DNA of 64,000 nt from Blastopirellula retiformator (GTDB lineage Bacteria; Planctomycetota; Planctomycetia; Pirellulales; Pirellulaceae), in assembly GCF_007859755.1 (NCBI RefSeq), contig NZ_SJPF01000001.1:1290082-1354081 (forward strand). Reading direction: 5' to 3'. The notes beneath the pieces are model-generated. The model was not told the DNA's origin. It made no database searches and worked only from the letters and a program-made list of their open reading frames with translations. A program made the position numbers and the translations under genes. Shown here one piece after another: positions 3,766 through 61,757 of the stretch. The number at the start of each line of letters is the position of its first letter. Within the stretch, counting starts at the first letter, position 1.

Positions 3766-4971
3766 GTGCGATGCGCGCTTAACATTTACGCCGGCCCGAG
3801 CGCCGGTCAGCGAATCCAGATTGGTGATGGGCAGACCATTAAGGTTGGCCGAACTCATGCCGCCGAGTTTCTGATTCCTGCCGATCCGCACGTCTCGGGT
3901 TTGCATTTCGCGGTGGAGTTGGCCAACGACCAACTGATGCTGACCGACTTGAAGAGCCGCAACGGAACCTACGTCAACGGCGAACGGATATCGCAGCCGA
4001 TCGCTTTGCAAGATGGGGACGTGGTCACGATCGGCAAGACGCATCTGCAAGCGGCCATTCTCGGCGAGTCGACGGGATCCCGTTCTGGGTTCGGCTCTCG
4101 GTTGTTTGATGAGCAGACCGCCGCCGCCAACATGGACGAGACGGGACGCGCTGCCAAACCGCCATCGCCGGCGCCGCGCTACGATTCGGATCTGACCGAG
4201 TTTCTGCCGTCGCTGCCCGACAAAATGCTGGCCGCTGAATCGAGCGACGAGCAACAAGAGATTGGGGATCACTACTCCCGGCTTTCCAGCGGCGACTTTC
4301 AAAAGGCGCGACAAAAGGCTGGCTATGGCAGTCAGGCCAACGTCGAAGCGCCCGCCAAGCGTGAGGCCGAGCAACCGGTCGTCCATGGCGCGCATCCCGC
4401 CACTTCCGGCGCACCGTCGCCGGGGCCGCTCGACTACGAAGCCGGCGTCGCTCCGTCGGGACTCAATTATTTCACGCAGCGAGTCGTGGTCGATCCGATC
4501 GCCGTCGCTCGCTATATCGGCCAGGGACGCAATCTGTACGCGATCGTCAATCTCGCGCGTCTGCCAGGGGACGACCGCAGCGCCTTTTATCGCGAGGCGA
4601 CCGCTCAAGGCGCCGTACCGATTTCGGACAATCAGTTGGTGCTGGATGACCGGAGCGTCGCTCAGTTCGAAAAGTCGATGCGATCGATCTGGGGACGCGA
4701 CGCGGTGATTTGTCTCGCTAGCCGGGCGGCCAAATTCGCGTTTGTCGCCCACGCGCTGCGGGTCGCCGATCGGCTGACCTATCCCAGTGAATTGCTCGAA
4801 TCGCTCTACACGAAGTCGTCGGGCGAAAACGACGACCTGTTTCAAGAAGTCTCGGCGATCATGCTCGAGGTAGAGCGGGGAGCCGGCTGGGCGATCTTCA
4901 AGAACGACGCCGAGATTCGCACCTGGCGAACCCTTGGCATGCCGTGCCCTCCCGCTTCGGCAGGGCAGTAG
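3766..4971 (+). CDS. FHA-domain protein with an unrecognised C-terminal domain
   Basis: The protein has 401 residues and starts with GTG; no better in-frame ATG lies at the beginning of the FHA fold. Residues 1-95 form a forkhead-associated domain: the VGRT turn, the SGLHF segment (Ser and His of the phosphothreonine pocket) and the RNGTYVNG loop are all visible. A polar linker rich in Pro, Ala and Asp follows (about 100-240). The C-terminal block of about 155 residues (YFTQRVVVDP to the end) looks globular, with no transmembrane helix. I do not recognise its family. FHA domains bind pThr peptides, so a role downstream of the preceding kinase-like protein is likely but inferred. A hairpin at 4981-5008 follows the stop codon. 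Confidence 0.85.
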   Translation: MRCALNIYAGPSAGQRIQIGDGQTIKVGRTHAAEFLIPADPHVSGLHFAVELANDQLMLTDLKSRNGTYVNGERISQPIALQDGDVVTIGKTHLQAAILGESTGSRSGFGSRLFDEQTAAANMDETGRAAKPPSPAPRYDSDLTEFLPSLPDKMLAAESSDEQQEIGDHYSRLSSGDFQKARQKAGYGSQANVEAPAKREAEQPVVHGAHPATSGAPSPGPLDYEAGVAPSGLNYFTQRVVVDPIAVARYIGQGRNLYAIVNLARLPGDDRSAFYREATAQGAVPISDNQLVLDDRSVAQFEKSMRSIWGRDAVICLASRAAKFAFVAHALRVADRLTYPSELLESLYTKSSGENDDLFQEVSAIMLEVERGAGWAIFKNDAEIRTWRTLGMPCPPASAGQ

Positions 4972-5003
4972 GCCCCGAAGGAGCTCGGCGCACAATCGCG
5001 CCG

Positions 5004-5110
5004 GGCTCAGACATCGCTCTTCGCGGCTCGCAAATTTACGACTTACGTCGCTATTTTGGGATCGCATCCCTGCGATCCAGCAGCCCGTTGAGAAAATCAA
5101 CGGACTGCTA
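5004..5110 (-). repeat. Five-hairpin dispersed element, copy A (truncated)
   Basis: This copy matches copies B-D in stem 1 (AGTCCGTTGA side), stem 2 (GATCGCA/TGCGATC) and stem 3 (around GACTTACGTC), and then ends near the GGCTCAG block. The last arm (TTGAAAAATGCC hairpin) is absent. Stem 3 carries two A-A mismatches, as expected of a decaying copy. The strand given is that of the proposed RNA sense, the same orientation as copy B. Confidence 0.75.
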
Positions 5111-5270
5111 GCGGGGGCTCTCTCCCGACAGGTCGCCTCTTTTTCAAAGAATTCCCCCCCAAATTTGCTGGTAGGTGGCTCACCTTGGACGAAAAGGAAC
5201 TCGCAAAATCTCAAATTCATGTACAATCGGCGCAAGTTCTCTTGGACACGAAAAAAACGACTTTGATATG

Positions 5271-18572: not shown

Positions 18573-19097
18573 CTAGGCGAGACACTTGTCCAGGGCCGCG
18601 ATCACGTCGTCGTAGTTCGGCTCTTGCGTCACTTCCGAAACGACTTCGCCGTAGACGACCGTGCCGTCCGCGTCGAGCACGTAGGCGCCGCGAGCCAGCA
18701 GCATCAGCTCTTCCATCAGCATGCCCCAGTTGTTGCCGAAGCTGCGGGTTTGATAGTCGGAGCCCTTCTGGATGTTTTCGATGCCTTCGGCGCCGCAGAA
18801 GCGGTTCATCGCGAACGGCAAGTCGCAACTGACCGTCAGAGCGTTGATCTTGTCGCCGTAGCTGCCCAGCTTTTCGTTGAAGGTGCGGGTCTGCGTCGCA
18901 CAGACGCCGGTGTCGACCGACGGCACAACGCTGAGGATGGTCGGCTTGCCTTTGACGTCGGCCAGCGTGATCGCCTTCAGGCCTTCCGGGCCAAAGCTAT
19001 GCAGGGTGAATTCGGGAGCCGGCTTGCCGACTTCGACCGCTTCGCCGGCCAGAGTCATCGGGTTGCCTTTAAACGTGACGGCGCCTGATCGCGACAT
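18573..19097 (-). CDS. tpx: Thiol peroxidase (atypical 2-Cys peroxiredoxin)
   Basis: The protein has 174 residues from the ATG at 19097, preceded by CAGGAGAATC; the longer open frame runs into the repeat copy and is not coding. The peroxidatic cysteine is in PSVDTGVCATQTRTFNE and the resolving cysteine in SCDLPFAMNRFCG, the Tpx spacing. It begins like E. coli Tpx (VTFKGNPMTLAG). Tpx reduces alkyl and hydrogen peroxides with thioredoxin in the periplasm or cytosol; there is no signal peptide here. It is monocistronic, with its own terminator at 18512-18545. Confidence 0.95.
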   Translation of the reverse strand: MSRSGAVTFKGNPMTLAGEAVEVGKPAPEFTLHSFGPEGLKAITLADVKGKPTILSVVPSVDTGVCATQTRTFNEKLGSYGDKINALTVSCDLPFAMNRFCGAEGIENIQKGSDYQTRSFGNNWGMLMEELMLLARGAYVLDADGTVVYGEVVSEVTQEPNYDDVIAALDKCLA

Positions 19098-19440
19098 AGG
19101 AGATTCTCCTGAGCTGAAGTTTGCGTGCGAGGGGGTTCGATACGCCGGTATTGTCTCCCACTGTCGGCGGCCGAGAAAGGGGGCGCTTGCCGCTGGCGGC
19201 CAATCTTCTTGGCCAAGAAACAGATCAGCCCGCGGGCCAAAGTCCGCGGGCTGATCCAAGTCGTCGTAGGTATCGCGAGATTTGACGCTAGCTACCTGTT
19301 GAAAAATGCCATCGTGGCATTTTTCAACCTCGCCAGGCTCAGAGCATAGCTCTTCGCGGCTCGCAAAATAACGACTTACGTCGTTATTTTGGGATCGCAT
19401 CCGTGCGATCACGCAGTCCGTCGAGAAAATCAACGGACTG
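19098..19440. other. 343-bp intergenic region: GC-rich hairpin and repeat copy B
   Basis: Positions 19223-19256 form a perfect 13-bp hairpin (GATCAGCCCGCGG with CCGCGGGCTGATC, 8-nt loop) without a T-run. From 19288 the region is filled by copy B of the five-hairpin element. No gene is supported. Confidence 0.6.
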
Positions 19441-19444
19441 CTAG
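19288..19444 (-). repeat. Five-hairpin dispersed element, copy B (full length)
   Basis: This is about 157 bp. In the proposed RNA sense (minus strand here) it starts CTAGCAGTCCG and ends CAGGTAGCTAGC. It contains five successive hairpins: CAGTCCGTTGA/TCGACGGACTG, GATCGCA/TGCGATC, AAAATAACGAC/GTCGTTATTTT with loop GTAA, AGAGC/GCTCT, and TTGAAAAATGCCA/TGGCATTTTTCAA. Stem 3 is fully Watson-Crick in this copy. Its first four bases overlap the stop codon of the BON gene. Confidence 0.9.
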
Positions 19445-19653
19445 GCCCAATTCACTTCCAGCTGGTTTTCGATCTGATCGACGCCAGCCTGGCGCAGGGC
19501 CTCTTGAGCCATTTGCTTCTGGAAAAAGGAGGAGACGCTCCCTTTCAGCACGATGCGGTCTTGCTCATGTTCAAAGCGGAACGAGCGTCCAGCAAAGTGC
19601 GGGTTGTTGGCGAGTGCGCGTTCCACATTGGCGGAAAAATCGGTTTGATTCAT
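19441..19653 (-). CDS. Small BON-domain protein (paralogue of the one at 7202-7426)
   Basis: The protein has 70 residues. It is one BON domain: SANVERALANNPHF, RSFRFEHEQDRIVLKGSV, SSFFQKQMAQEALRQAG, IENQLEVNW. There is no signal peptide or membrane helix. The TAG stop codon is formed by the terminal CTAG of repeat copy B, so the repeat inserted at or exactly beside the gene's end. The shared DRIVL.G.V..F.QKQ core with the other copy points to duplication of a small, possibly membrane-associated protein. The function is unknown. Confidence 0.75.
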   Translation of the reverse strand: MNQTDFSANVERALANNPHFAGRSFRFEHEQDRIVLKGSVSSFFQKQMAQEALRQAGVDQIENQLEVNWA

Positions 19654-33162: not shown

Positions 33163-33591
33163 TGCGTCATCCTTGACGATGGTCTTTCTCGCGAGGGATT
33201 CTACCGCAAGAGGTAAAATCCACCTAGACGAATGCGAGCCCAGAAATAGTAGCCCGCAGCGCGAGCGAGGGAAATGCGTTCGGTCCCTTGCCATGATAGA
33301 CATAATCGACGTGCGCATGGCGTTGTGCTAGCTTCCATTCAACGCGTGATCGACGACGTTCAATGGGAGGCGATTCAGAGCCTTCGCGTTTGACTTGCAA
33401 CCGCATTTCCCTCGCTCGCCCGTCGGGCGACGATCGCCCTAGCAGTCCGTTGATTTTCTCGACGGACTGCGTGATCGCATGGATGCGATCCCAAAATAGC
33501 GACGTAAGTCGTTATTTTGCGAGCCGCGAAGAGCTACGCTCTGAGCCTGGCGAGGTTGAAAAATGCCACGATGGCATTTTTCAACAGGCAG
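33163..33591. other. 429-bp intergenic region: short-repeat pair and repeat copy C
   Basis: Two units of the TTTCCCTCG family form a perfect 17-bp inverted pair (33262-33278 and 33402-33418) around 123 bp. From 33439 copy C of the five-hairpin element fills the rest. There is no gene. Confidence 0.7.
33262..33418. repeat. Inverted pair of short dispersed units
   Basis: CGAGCGAGGGAAATGCG (33262-33278) and its exact complement at 33402-33418 are copies of the family also seen near 24446, 24577 and 30515. Confidence 0.8.
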
Positions 33592-33596
33592 CTAGC
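33439..33596 (+). repeat. Five-hairpin dispersed element, copy C (full length)
   Basis: This is 158 bp, bounded by CTAGCAG and CAGCTAGC. The five stems are as in copy B. Stem 1 and stem 3 each contain one T.G or G.T pair in this strand, and the stem 3 loop is GTAA, a GNRA tetraloop in RNA. The last six bases contain the stop codon of the downstream hydrolase gene. Confidence 0.9.
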
Positions 33597-34329
33597 CGCC
33601 GGTCACCTTCTGCATCAACCAGCGATTCAGATCCTCGAACATGTCGGTCGAGAGTTCATCGCCACAGAGATACTGGTGCAGATCGATCTTCATCCCGGCC
33701 GTGTGCAGCAGACGCAAATCTTCGCACAGCTTCGACTCAGGATAGCGTTCGCTTTGCTGCAGATGGATCATCAGCATCGGCAGCGAGCGGGCTTCGCTCA
33801 GGCGAGCCAGCGGCGAGCAACCTTGCGGGAAGCCTCCGCCGATCGATGCGGCGCCGGCGAACAGCTCCGGGTTGCGCAGAGCGAGGCGAATCGCCATCGC
33901 TCCGCCGCCGAGATAGCCGGCCAAAAAGATCCGCTGCGGGTGAATGTTGTACCGCTTTTCAGCGACGCGAACGGTCTGCAGCACGCGAGCGGCTGCAACG
34001 TCGATGTCACGCTGCTTTTGATCCCAGCGGAACGTCATGCCGGCGGTCGCGCCGTCATGTCGCGGCGCCCGGGGCGCCGCGGCGACGTAGTTGCGGGTGC
34101 TGGTCAGCGGCATCACGCGACGAAGTTGTCGTTCGTTATCGCCGGGGCCGTGCAACCAGACGACGAGCGGATAGGCATAGCCGGGCTCGTAGTTCTGCGG
34201 AGTAAAAAATTCGATCGCGGTCCGGCGGGACTGCAGCCGATCGATTTTGAACTCGAGGATTTGTTGCGCGGCTTGCGTGGCGGCTCCGGGGAGCGGAGCC
34301 GGGAGTACGTCTTGGCGTTTCATAAGCAT
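33592..34329 (-). CDS. Alpha/beta-hydrolase-fold protein lacking the catalytic serine
   Basis: The protein has 245 residues. The fold resembles dienelactone-hydrolase / esterase PHB-depolymerase relatives: YAYPLVVWLHGPGDNERQL, then RIFLAGYLGGGAMAIRLAL, then LPMLMIHLQQSERYPES. The nucleophile elbow should be GxSxG but reads GYLGG, with Leu (CTC) for Ser. The region where the His is expected reads LCGDELSTDMFEDL. The hydrolytic triad therefore seems absent. A binding or regulatory role, or a different chemistry, is more likely. The TAG stop codon lies within the CTAGC end of repeat copy C. The N-terminus has no signal peptide. Confidence 0.7.
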   Translation of the reverse strand: MLMKRQDVLPAPLPGAATQAAQQILEFKIDRLQSRRTAIEFFTPQNYEPGYAYPLVVWLHGPGDNERQLRRVMPLTSTRNYVAAAPRAPRHDGATAGMTFRWDQKQRDIDVAAARVLQTVRVAEKRYNIHPQRIFLAGYLGGGAMAIRLALRNPELFAGAASIGGGFPQGCSPLARLSEARSLPMLMIHLQQSERYPESKLCEDLRLLHTAGMKIDLHQYLCGDELSTDMFEDLNRWLMQKVTGG

Positions 34330-61601: not shown

Positions 61602-61757
61602 TTAGCAGTCCGTTGATTTTCTCGACGGACTGCGTGATCGCAGGGATGCGATCCCAAAATAGCGACGTAAGTCGTTATTTTGGGAGCCGCGAAGAGCGAT
61701 GCTCTGAGCCTGGCGAGGTTGAAAAATGCCACGAGGGCATTTTTCAACAGGCAGTTG
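61602..61757 (+). repeat. Five-hairpin dispersed element, copy D (near full length)
   Basis: This is 156 bp, with all five stems present. The ends are worn: TTAGCAG instead of CTAGCAG at the start and CAGTTGG at the end. The closing pair of stem 5 is lost (GAGGGC instead of GATGGC). Stem 3 keeps the GTAA loop and a G.T pair. It lies 84 bp after the fliN stop codon. Confidence 0.9.

Follow-up and report, generated by a model that had tools for sequence, protein, structure and literature searches.

A dispersed MITE of Blastopirellula retiformator with a conserved five-hairpin fold, probably maintained as RNA and often placed at gene ends

Bacterial MITEs are commonly regarded as relics of deleted insertion sequences (IS). 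Families such as Correia, RUP and BOX/SPRITE are short and non-coding, carry terminal inverted repeats (TIRs) within a target duplication, lie between genes in high copy number, form hairpins and are mobilized in trans. A 2024 review of prokaryotic MITEs treats terminators and riboswitches as possibilities only (PMC10969869). In Coxiella burnetii, the accessible part of one report presents the MITE families QMITE1 and QMITE2, with tens to about 80 copies, as a source of small RNAs, describes their duplications as variable in sequence and their mover as unknown, and reports no cross-family covariation (PMC5896051). REP/BIME elements (GTAG and CGTC superfamilies) are likewise palindromic, dispersed and intergenic (PMC3733652), and the CsrA/RsmA-binding RNAs CsrB and RsmY/RsmZ present ANGGA in hairpin loops on covarying stems, with many such loops per RNA.

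The element of Blastopirellula retiformator analyzed in this work shares the listed traits of the bacterial MITEs but differs from MITEs in general in (i) five hairpins that covary across families, with strand polarity and a fixed GGA loop, (ii) the position of about 41% of its copies on stop codons, and (iii) a probable helper of IS1182/IS5 type together with a YTAR target. Unlike REP/BIME, it is longer, has TIRs and a target duplication and does not follow Y1-type transposition; in contrast to CsrB and RsmY/RsmZ, it has one ANGGA loop, is mobile and dispersed, and its binding of CsrA is putative. The MITE features are themselves known, and the novelty rests on the conserved, strand-polar RNA fold. 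In the openly accessible literature, searched without an ISfinder comparison, we found no description of this MITE family, nor did we find there a paper on Rhodopirellula MITEs together with insertion sequences.

The window, which is the whole stretch of 64,000 nucleotides that was analyzed, contains the four copies announced in the original prediction. Full copies are located at 33439..33595 (+ strand; the reference, with a 149-bp core and 4-bp duplications), 19288..19444 (− strand) and 61603..61757 (+ strand, with an imperfect right duplication). The fourth, at about 4993..5111 (− strand), is truncated, retaining hairpins 1-4 before an unrelated 3' end; here blastn covers positions 1-120 of the query, and the covariance model aligns 4961-5107 with the last hairpin differing. 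The predicted coordinates were right in location and off by a base or two, the element proper ending in its 4-bp target duplication. The five hairpins proposed from the letters hold up well, with z-scores of -8.3 for RNA and -8.0 for DNA folding and not one shuffled sequence folding equally well.

In the reference copy, the left target duplication CTAG (33439..33442) is followed by the left TIR CAGTCCGTTGA (33443..33453, + strand), which doubles as the 5' arm of hairpin 1 (33443..33469). On the same strand, hairpin 2 (33473..33490, GATCGC-ATGGAT-GCGATC) has the GGA loop, hairpin 3 (33492..33519) has a GTAA loop that is GNRA-like in most members, hairpin 4 (33520..33554) stands on a CGAG/CGAG base with possible tandem G-A pairs, and hairpin 5 (33555..33585, GTTGAAAAATGCC-ACGAT-GGCATTTTTCAAC) marks the place where other copies carry nested IS4-family insertions. 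The right TIR CTGCCTGTTGA (33581..33591, − strand) leads to the right duplication CTAG (33592..33595). Both TIRs are 11 bp long and imperfect; the core runs from CAGTCCGTTGA to TCAACAGGCAG, and the full length is 157 bp. The right duplication holds the stop codon (33592-33594, − strand) of an esterase-like gene at 33592-34329, and the duplication of the copy at 19288..19444 (positions 19441-19444) holds that of a 70-aa ORF at 19441-19653 (− strand), so that this stop-codon type accounts for two of the four copies in the window. The element has no coding capacity and does produce misleading frames, as had been foreseen: a 286-aa ORF (18573-19433) reads into the copy at 19288..19444, giving MIFSTDCVIARM...SEPGEVEKCHDG. 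The frame in question (− strand) is peroxiredoxin-like, its N terminus is extended through the MITE copy, and a start codon annotated there would be wrong.

The original prediction recognized no IS, REP or MITE family in the repeat. The element is a MITE, and we have hardly any doubt about this: its TIRs, the 4-bp target duplication, the orthologous sites that are empty and the autonomous relatives sharing both its ends and its target all speak for it. The absence of a catalogued family was confirmed for Rfam, since searches against Rfam 15 hit the element neither in the window, at gathering scores, nor at ten loci, with E values up to 5. The flanking 4-bp repeat is mostly CTAG, TTAG, CTAA, TTAA or ATAG (YTAR), and in 37 of 47 copies the two words are identical; 5000 shuffles gave 10 such copies on average and 20 at most. 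Shifted registers show no duplication, and bases outside the four are not shared above chance. A comparison of orthologous intergenic loci, suggested in the original prediction, was made on stretches fetched from the syntenic same-genus genome G002, in which about 20 loci, including those of the window copies 19288 and 33439, are without the element. Where the flanks align well, G002 has a single YTAR word, for example TTAG (window 19441 and 33592), CTAA (C1:309642) or CTAG (C1:265091). These empty sites indicate that the MITE burst is specific to the B. retiformator lineage.

In the first 1.2 Mb of contig 1, blast and HMM searches gave 62 non-overlapping matches, 49 of them full, a count in which a few pairs represent one copy split by an IS. 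This density corresponds to about 300 copies in the 6.2-Mb genome, in line with the hundreds that had been extrapolated from four. Across the whole genome, the exact right-end pattern gave about 209 sites (102 forward, plus 215 reverse entries that list each site about twice), and its reversed control gave 0 matches. Both orientations are used equally (25 + and 24 − among the full copies of the same 1.2 Mb), and pairwise identity among copies is about 95%. The statement that the element always lies between genes was nearly exact, as a simple gene caller placed 61 of the 62 matches between genes and one 64-bp fragment within a predicted gene. Internally deleted copies of 121-139 bp with intact ends and duplications occur as well. 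No match to the element was found in the plasmids and viral contigs searched. We also observed micro-elements of 26-27 bp made up of the two ends only, back to back, beside NTAR words (C1:203451 and C1:959191 of the own genome, G000).

A duplication of constant length, 4 bp with the sequence YTAR, suggested a DDE transposase as the mover. A truncated IS1182/IS5-like gene in the own genome (L074) has a right end consisting of CTAG and CAGCCCGTTGAACTATTGGG, and an intact relative in genome G045 is bounded by CTAG-CAGCCTGTTGAATTAT and ATAATTCAACGGGCGG-CTAG. Eleven loci in related genomes contain a transposase of the L091 type in a unit of 1.4-1.5 kb with both ends (CAGCCCGTTGA) and equal YTAR words. 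Of 396 genomes searched in the order, 47 gave a match to the MITE fold, 32 to the transposase and 9 to both (3.8 expected, p = 0.007), these searches being filtered strictly so that the absences are soft. The IS5 group produces a 4-bp YTAR duplication. With IS5 and IS1182 the partner transposase shares the domains DUF772 and DDE_Tnp_1 as well as this duplication, but the MITE has only its ends in common with the partner. The best NCBIfam match of the partner is IS1182 (196 bits for a cut-off of 270) and the second is IS5_4 (100 for 140), both below cut-off, so that the assignment to an IS family is provisional; a solved-structure search with the transposase gave no match. Judging from these ends and YTAR duplications, the MITE is very likely moved in trans by a DDE transposase of the IS1182/IS5-like class (DUF772 plus DDE_Tnp_1). 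The weak point is the own genome itself, which has this type as a truncated copy only; its burst may have relied on another helper or on one since lost.

Two other candidates for an autonomous parent within the own genome were discarded. A 1717-bp unit, detected through PF01609, with MITE ends around a 426-aa transposase (L068, L070, L071) proved to be an IS4-family element nested in hairpin 5; this element is about 1553 bp long, has the TIR ATACYGTTCGGCACG and a duplication of about 13 bp (TGCCACGAGGGCA), and also occurs as a free copy (L069). It sits at the same spot of hairpin 5 in several MITE copies (L068, L070, L071, L077, L078), and the outer NTAR duplications match in L068, L070 and L078; either hairpin 5 is a preferred IS4 target or the MITE and the IS are mobile as a composite. 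An ISAs1 element (1260 bp, ends CACGGCGATTGCGC) turned out to be unrelated to the MITE. Its ten near-identical copies (L057-L066, 94-100% identity) represent a second recent expansion in the own genome.

The fold was followed with a covariance model built from ten copies, which aligned 44 members; its relatives are scattered over many families of the order. All five stems are kept, and 45 of 55 pairs show changes on both sides, a count that leans towards structure, since the alignment had been made to fit it and its members are related to one another. In these 44 members, 92.5% of the stem cells are paired, compared with 79.2% after shuffling and 33-44% when the stems are slid. The compensatory changes are visible by eye in hairpin 3, which reads CAAAATAGCGAC..GTCGTTATTTTG in the window and CAAATCGTGG..CCGCGATTTG in G045. 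With one row per genome, the mismatch cells comprise 45 G-T versus 12 A-C, and the + strand gives the more stable RNA in 37 of the 44 members. Within the own burst, diversity is 0.021 in stems versus 0.072 in unpaired positions, and the four frequent stem polymorphisms mainly exchange Watson-Crick and G-U pairs on the + strand. Unpaired letters are conserved too: the loop of hairpin 2 contains GGA in 42 of 43 distinct members, mostly as ANGGAT, and the base of hairpin 4 is CGAG/CGAG, with a Watson-Crick CGAG/CTCG in some relatives. Because the stems are compensated, G-U exceeds A-C and the loop and internal-loop letters are fixed, the interior is probably under selection as an RNA fold of one strand. 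A MITE carrying a structured RNA is, with good confidence, the best explanation overall. A shorter relative of 119 bp (family f8; L185 in G297, and L189) has hairpin 4 reduced, carries GGA a second time in the last hairpin (CCATGGATGG), and occurs in near-tandem copies at L185 1501-1619 and 1624-1742.

A related form is resident in genus g58. Five of nine species there have one copy without TIRs in a long tRNA array, where it separates tRNA-Val(TAC) from tRNA-Asp(GTC); in three other species the spacer at that place is short. The array tRNAs are on the strand opposite to the + strand of the element, and the three array copies included in the model alignment keep 90-96% of the pairs with differing letters. 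The tRNA arrays of this genus are very long, with up to 19 tRNA genes in 3 kb (L182, L183, L184, L188).

Several other origins of the hairpins have to be weighed. Template switching corrects inverted repeats, and such correction would favor the view that the element is an ordinary MITE whose hairpins are by-products and whose paired changes come from hairpin-templated (quasipalindrome) repair instead of selection on RNA. An old fixed pair outside such tRNA arrays, L036 and L043, has indeed fallen to 73-75% pairing, so that not every copy is under selection. Repair, however, predicts Watson-Crick pairs without strand preference, contrary to the bias for G-T over A-C and to the greater stability of the + strand, and neither the GGA loop nor the CGAG/CGAG letters are products of arm repair; we therefore regard this view as improbable. 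Somewhat less probable still is that the hairpins serve the DNA, as features that the transposase or DNA-binding proteins of the host recognize in the course of transposition. The left TIR lies in hairpin 1 together with its inverse, hairpin 5 extends into the right one, and the fold is found mainly in mobile forms, all of which would suit a role in DNA. Yet the full IS relatives have the same ends without hairpins 2-4, meaning that the transposase does not need these, the deleted copies keep their ends and duplications, the fold survives in the TIR-less copies of the tRNA array, and the strand polarity of pairing is also against it. Strand polarity and fixed unpaired letters are in fact unexpected from either palindrome repair or DNA hairpins alone. 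As for a REP/BIME-type element moved by a Y1 (RAYT/IS200-IS605) HUH transposase, the repeat is palindromic, intergenic and of high copy number, and 21 Y1_Tnp matches are present in the own genome; but Y1 transposition makes no target duplication, whereas the 4-bp duplication is exact in most copies and the TIRs match those of DDE elements. We rejected this origin on account of the duplications and give it next to no probability. A structured RNA gene might also have come first, in the array of genus g58, and have been captured later between transposon ends to become the MITE. The TIR-less copy in five of the nine species, with its fold kept by compensatory changes, would be in agreement with this; the array copy was found in genus g58 only, however, and the mobile forms are scattered over the order, so that later domestication fits at least as well, and we hold such a capture to be as improbable as the repair view.

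The position of the copies adds a further point. No full copy lies inside a gene, where 24.7 were expected for the same words with a simple codon-usage gene caller. The target word falls on a stop codon in 21 of 49 copies (7.6 expected among non-coding sites) and in 10 of 26 copies on other contigs; pooled, this makes 31 of 75 copies against about 12 expected (p = 2e-7, or p = 2e-4 under a harsher background that assigns a third of the 'intergenic' sites to missed genes). Since the duplication rebuilds the stop codon, the gene is left unharmed, and the excess reflects either the target choice of the transposase or the survival of harmless insertions. It also bears on the idea that the element is a portable 3' end in which hairpins 3 and 5, built of an A-tract, a short GC stem and a T-tract, work as bidirectional terminators or as stabilizers of mRNA 3' ends, which would explain why copies are kept directly behind stop codons. 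In its favor, hairpin 5 points towards the stop codon in 21 of those 31 copies (p = 0.07), and A/T tracts flank its GC stem. Scans for sigma-70 promoters and terminators found nothing in two copies, though, the A/T tracts lying within the hairpin 5 stem; the G+C stem has only 4-5 pairs, and termination by itself would keep neither the hairpin 2 loop nor hairpin 4 fixed. On balance this idea seems unlikely, albeit less so than any of the origins considered above.

Returning to selection on the RNA, the most testable molecular role would be the binding of a CsrA-family protein through hairpin 2, a possibility that we put forward only tentatively. The hairpin has the form of a CsrA site, with ANGGA in a hairpin loop, and most members have a single GGA loop. 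CsrA is likely to be common in these bacteria. All 15 genomes examined have CsrA matches, several each; the CsrA-like loop hence has a possible partner, but as all 15 carry the element this observation is not discriminating. The own genome has 13 matches to PF02599 (CsrA) versus 7 in each of three same-genus genomes; some of the 13 are adjacent or partial, so the real difference may be smaller.

It is tempting to speculate on how these parts could work together. An IS1182/IS5-like transposase would move the MITE in trans into YTAR; insertion there would re-create the stop codon and add hairpins behind the gene; RNA could be made from an undetected promoter or by read-through from neighboring genes; a host RNA-binding protein, with CsrA as the first candidate, might bind to hairpin 2 at its ANGGAU-type loop; and the element would persist as tolerated or useful at gene ends. 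In its full form, as a mobile riboregulator by which a MITE spreads a protein-binding RNA (for CsrA or another protein) mostly to gene ends, with one lineage keeping a resident in a tRNA array, the scheme is rather doubtful, marginally less so than binding to CsrA in particular.

Altogether, the conserved shape in spite of changed letters suggests that the element spreads a working structured RNA, often exactly at gene ends. Across distances as large as the order, this cargo has the look of a selected RNA, and the element still jumps. For the annotation of planctomycete genomes, in which the element yields extended or spurious protein frames, the analysis provides a transposase class, an insertion rule (YTAR, often at the stop codon) and a search model. 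Should the RNA be active, a single burst would supply hundreds of gene ends with the same hairpins, and whether such repeats are junk or regulators would become a directly testable question.
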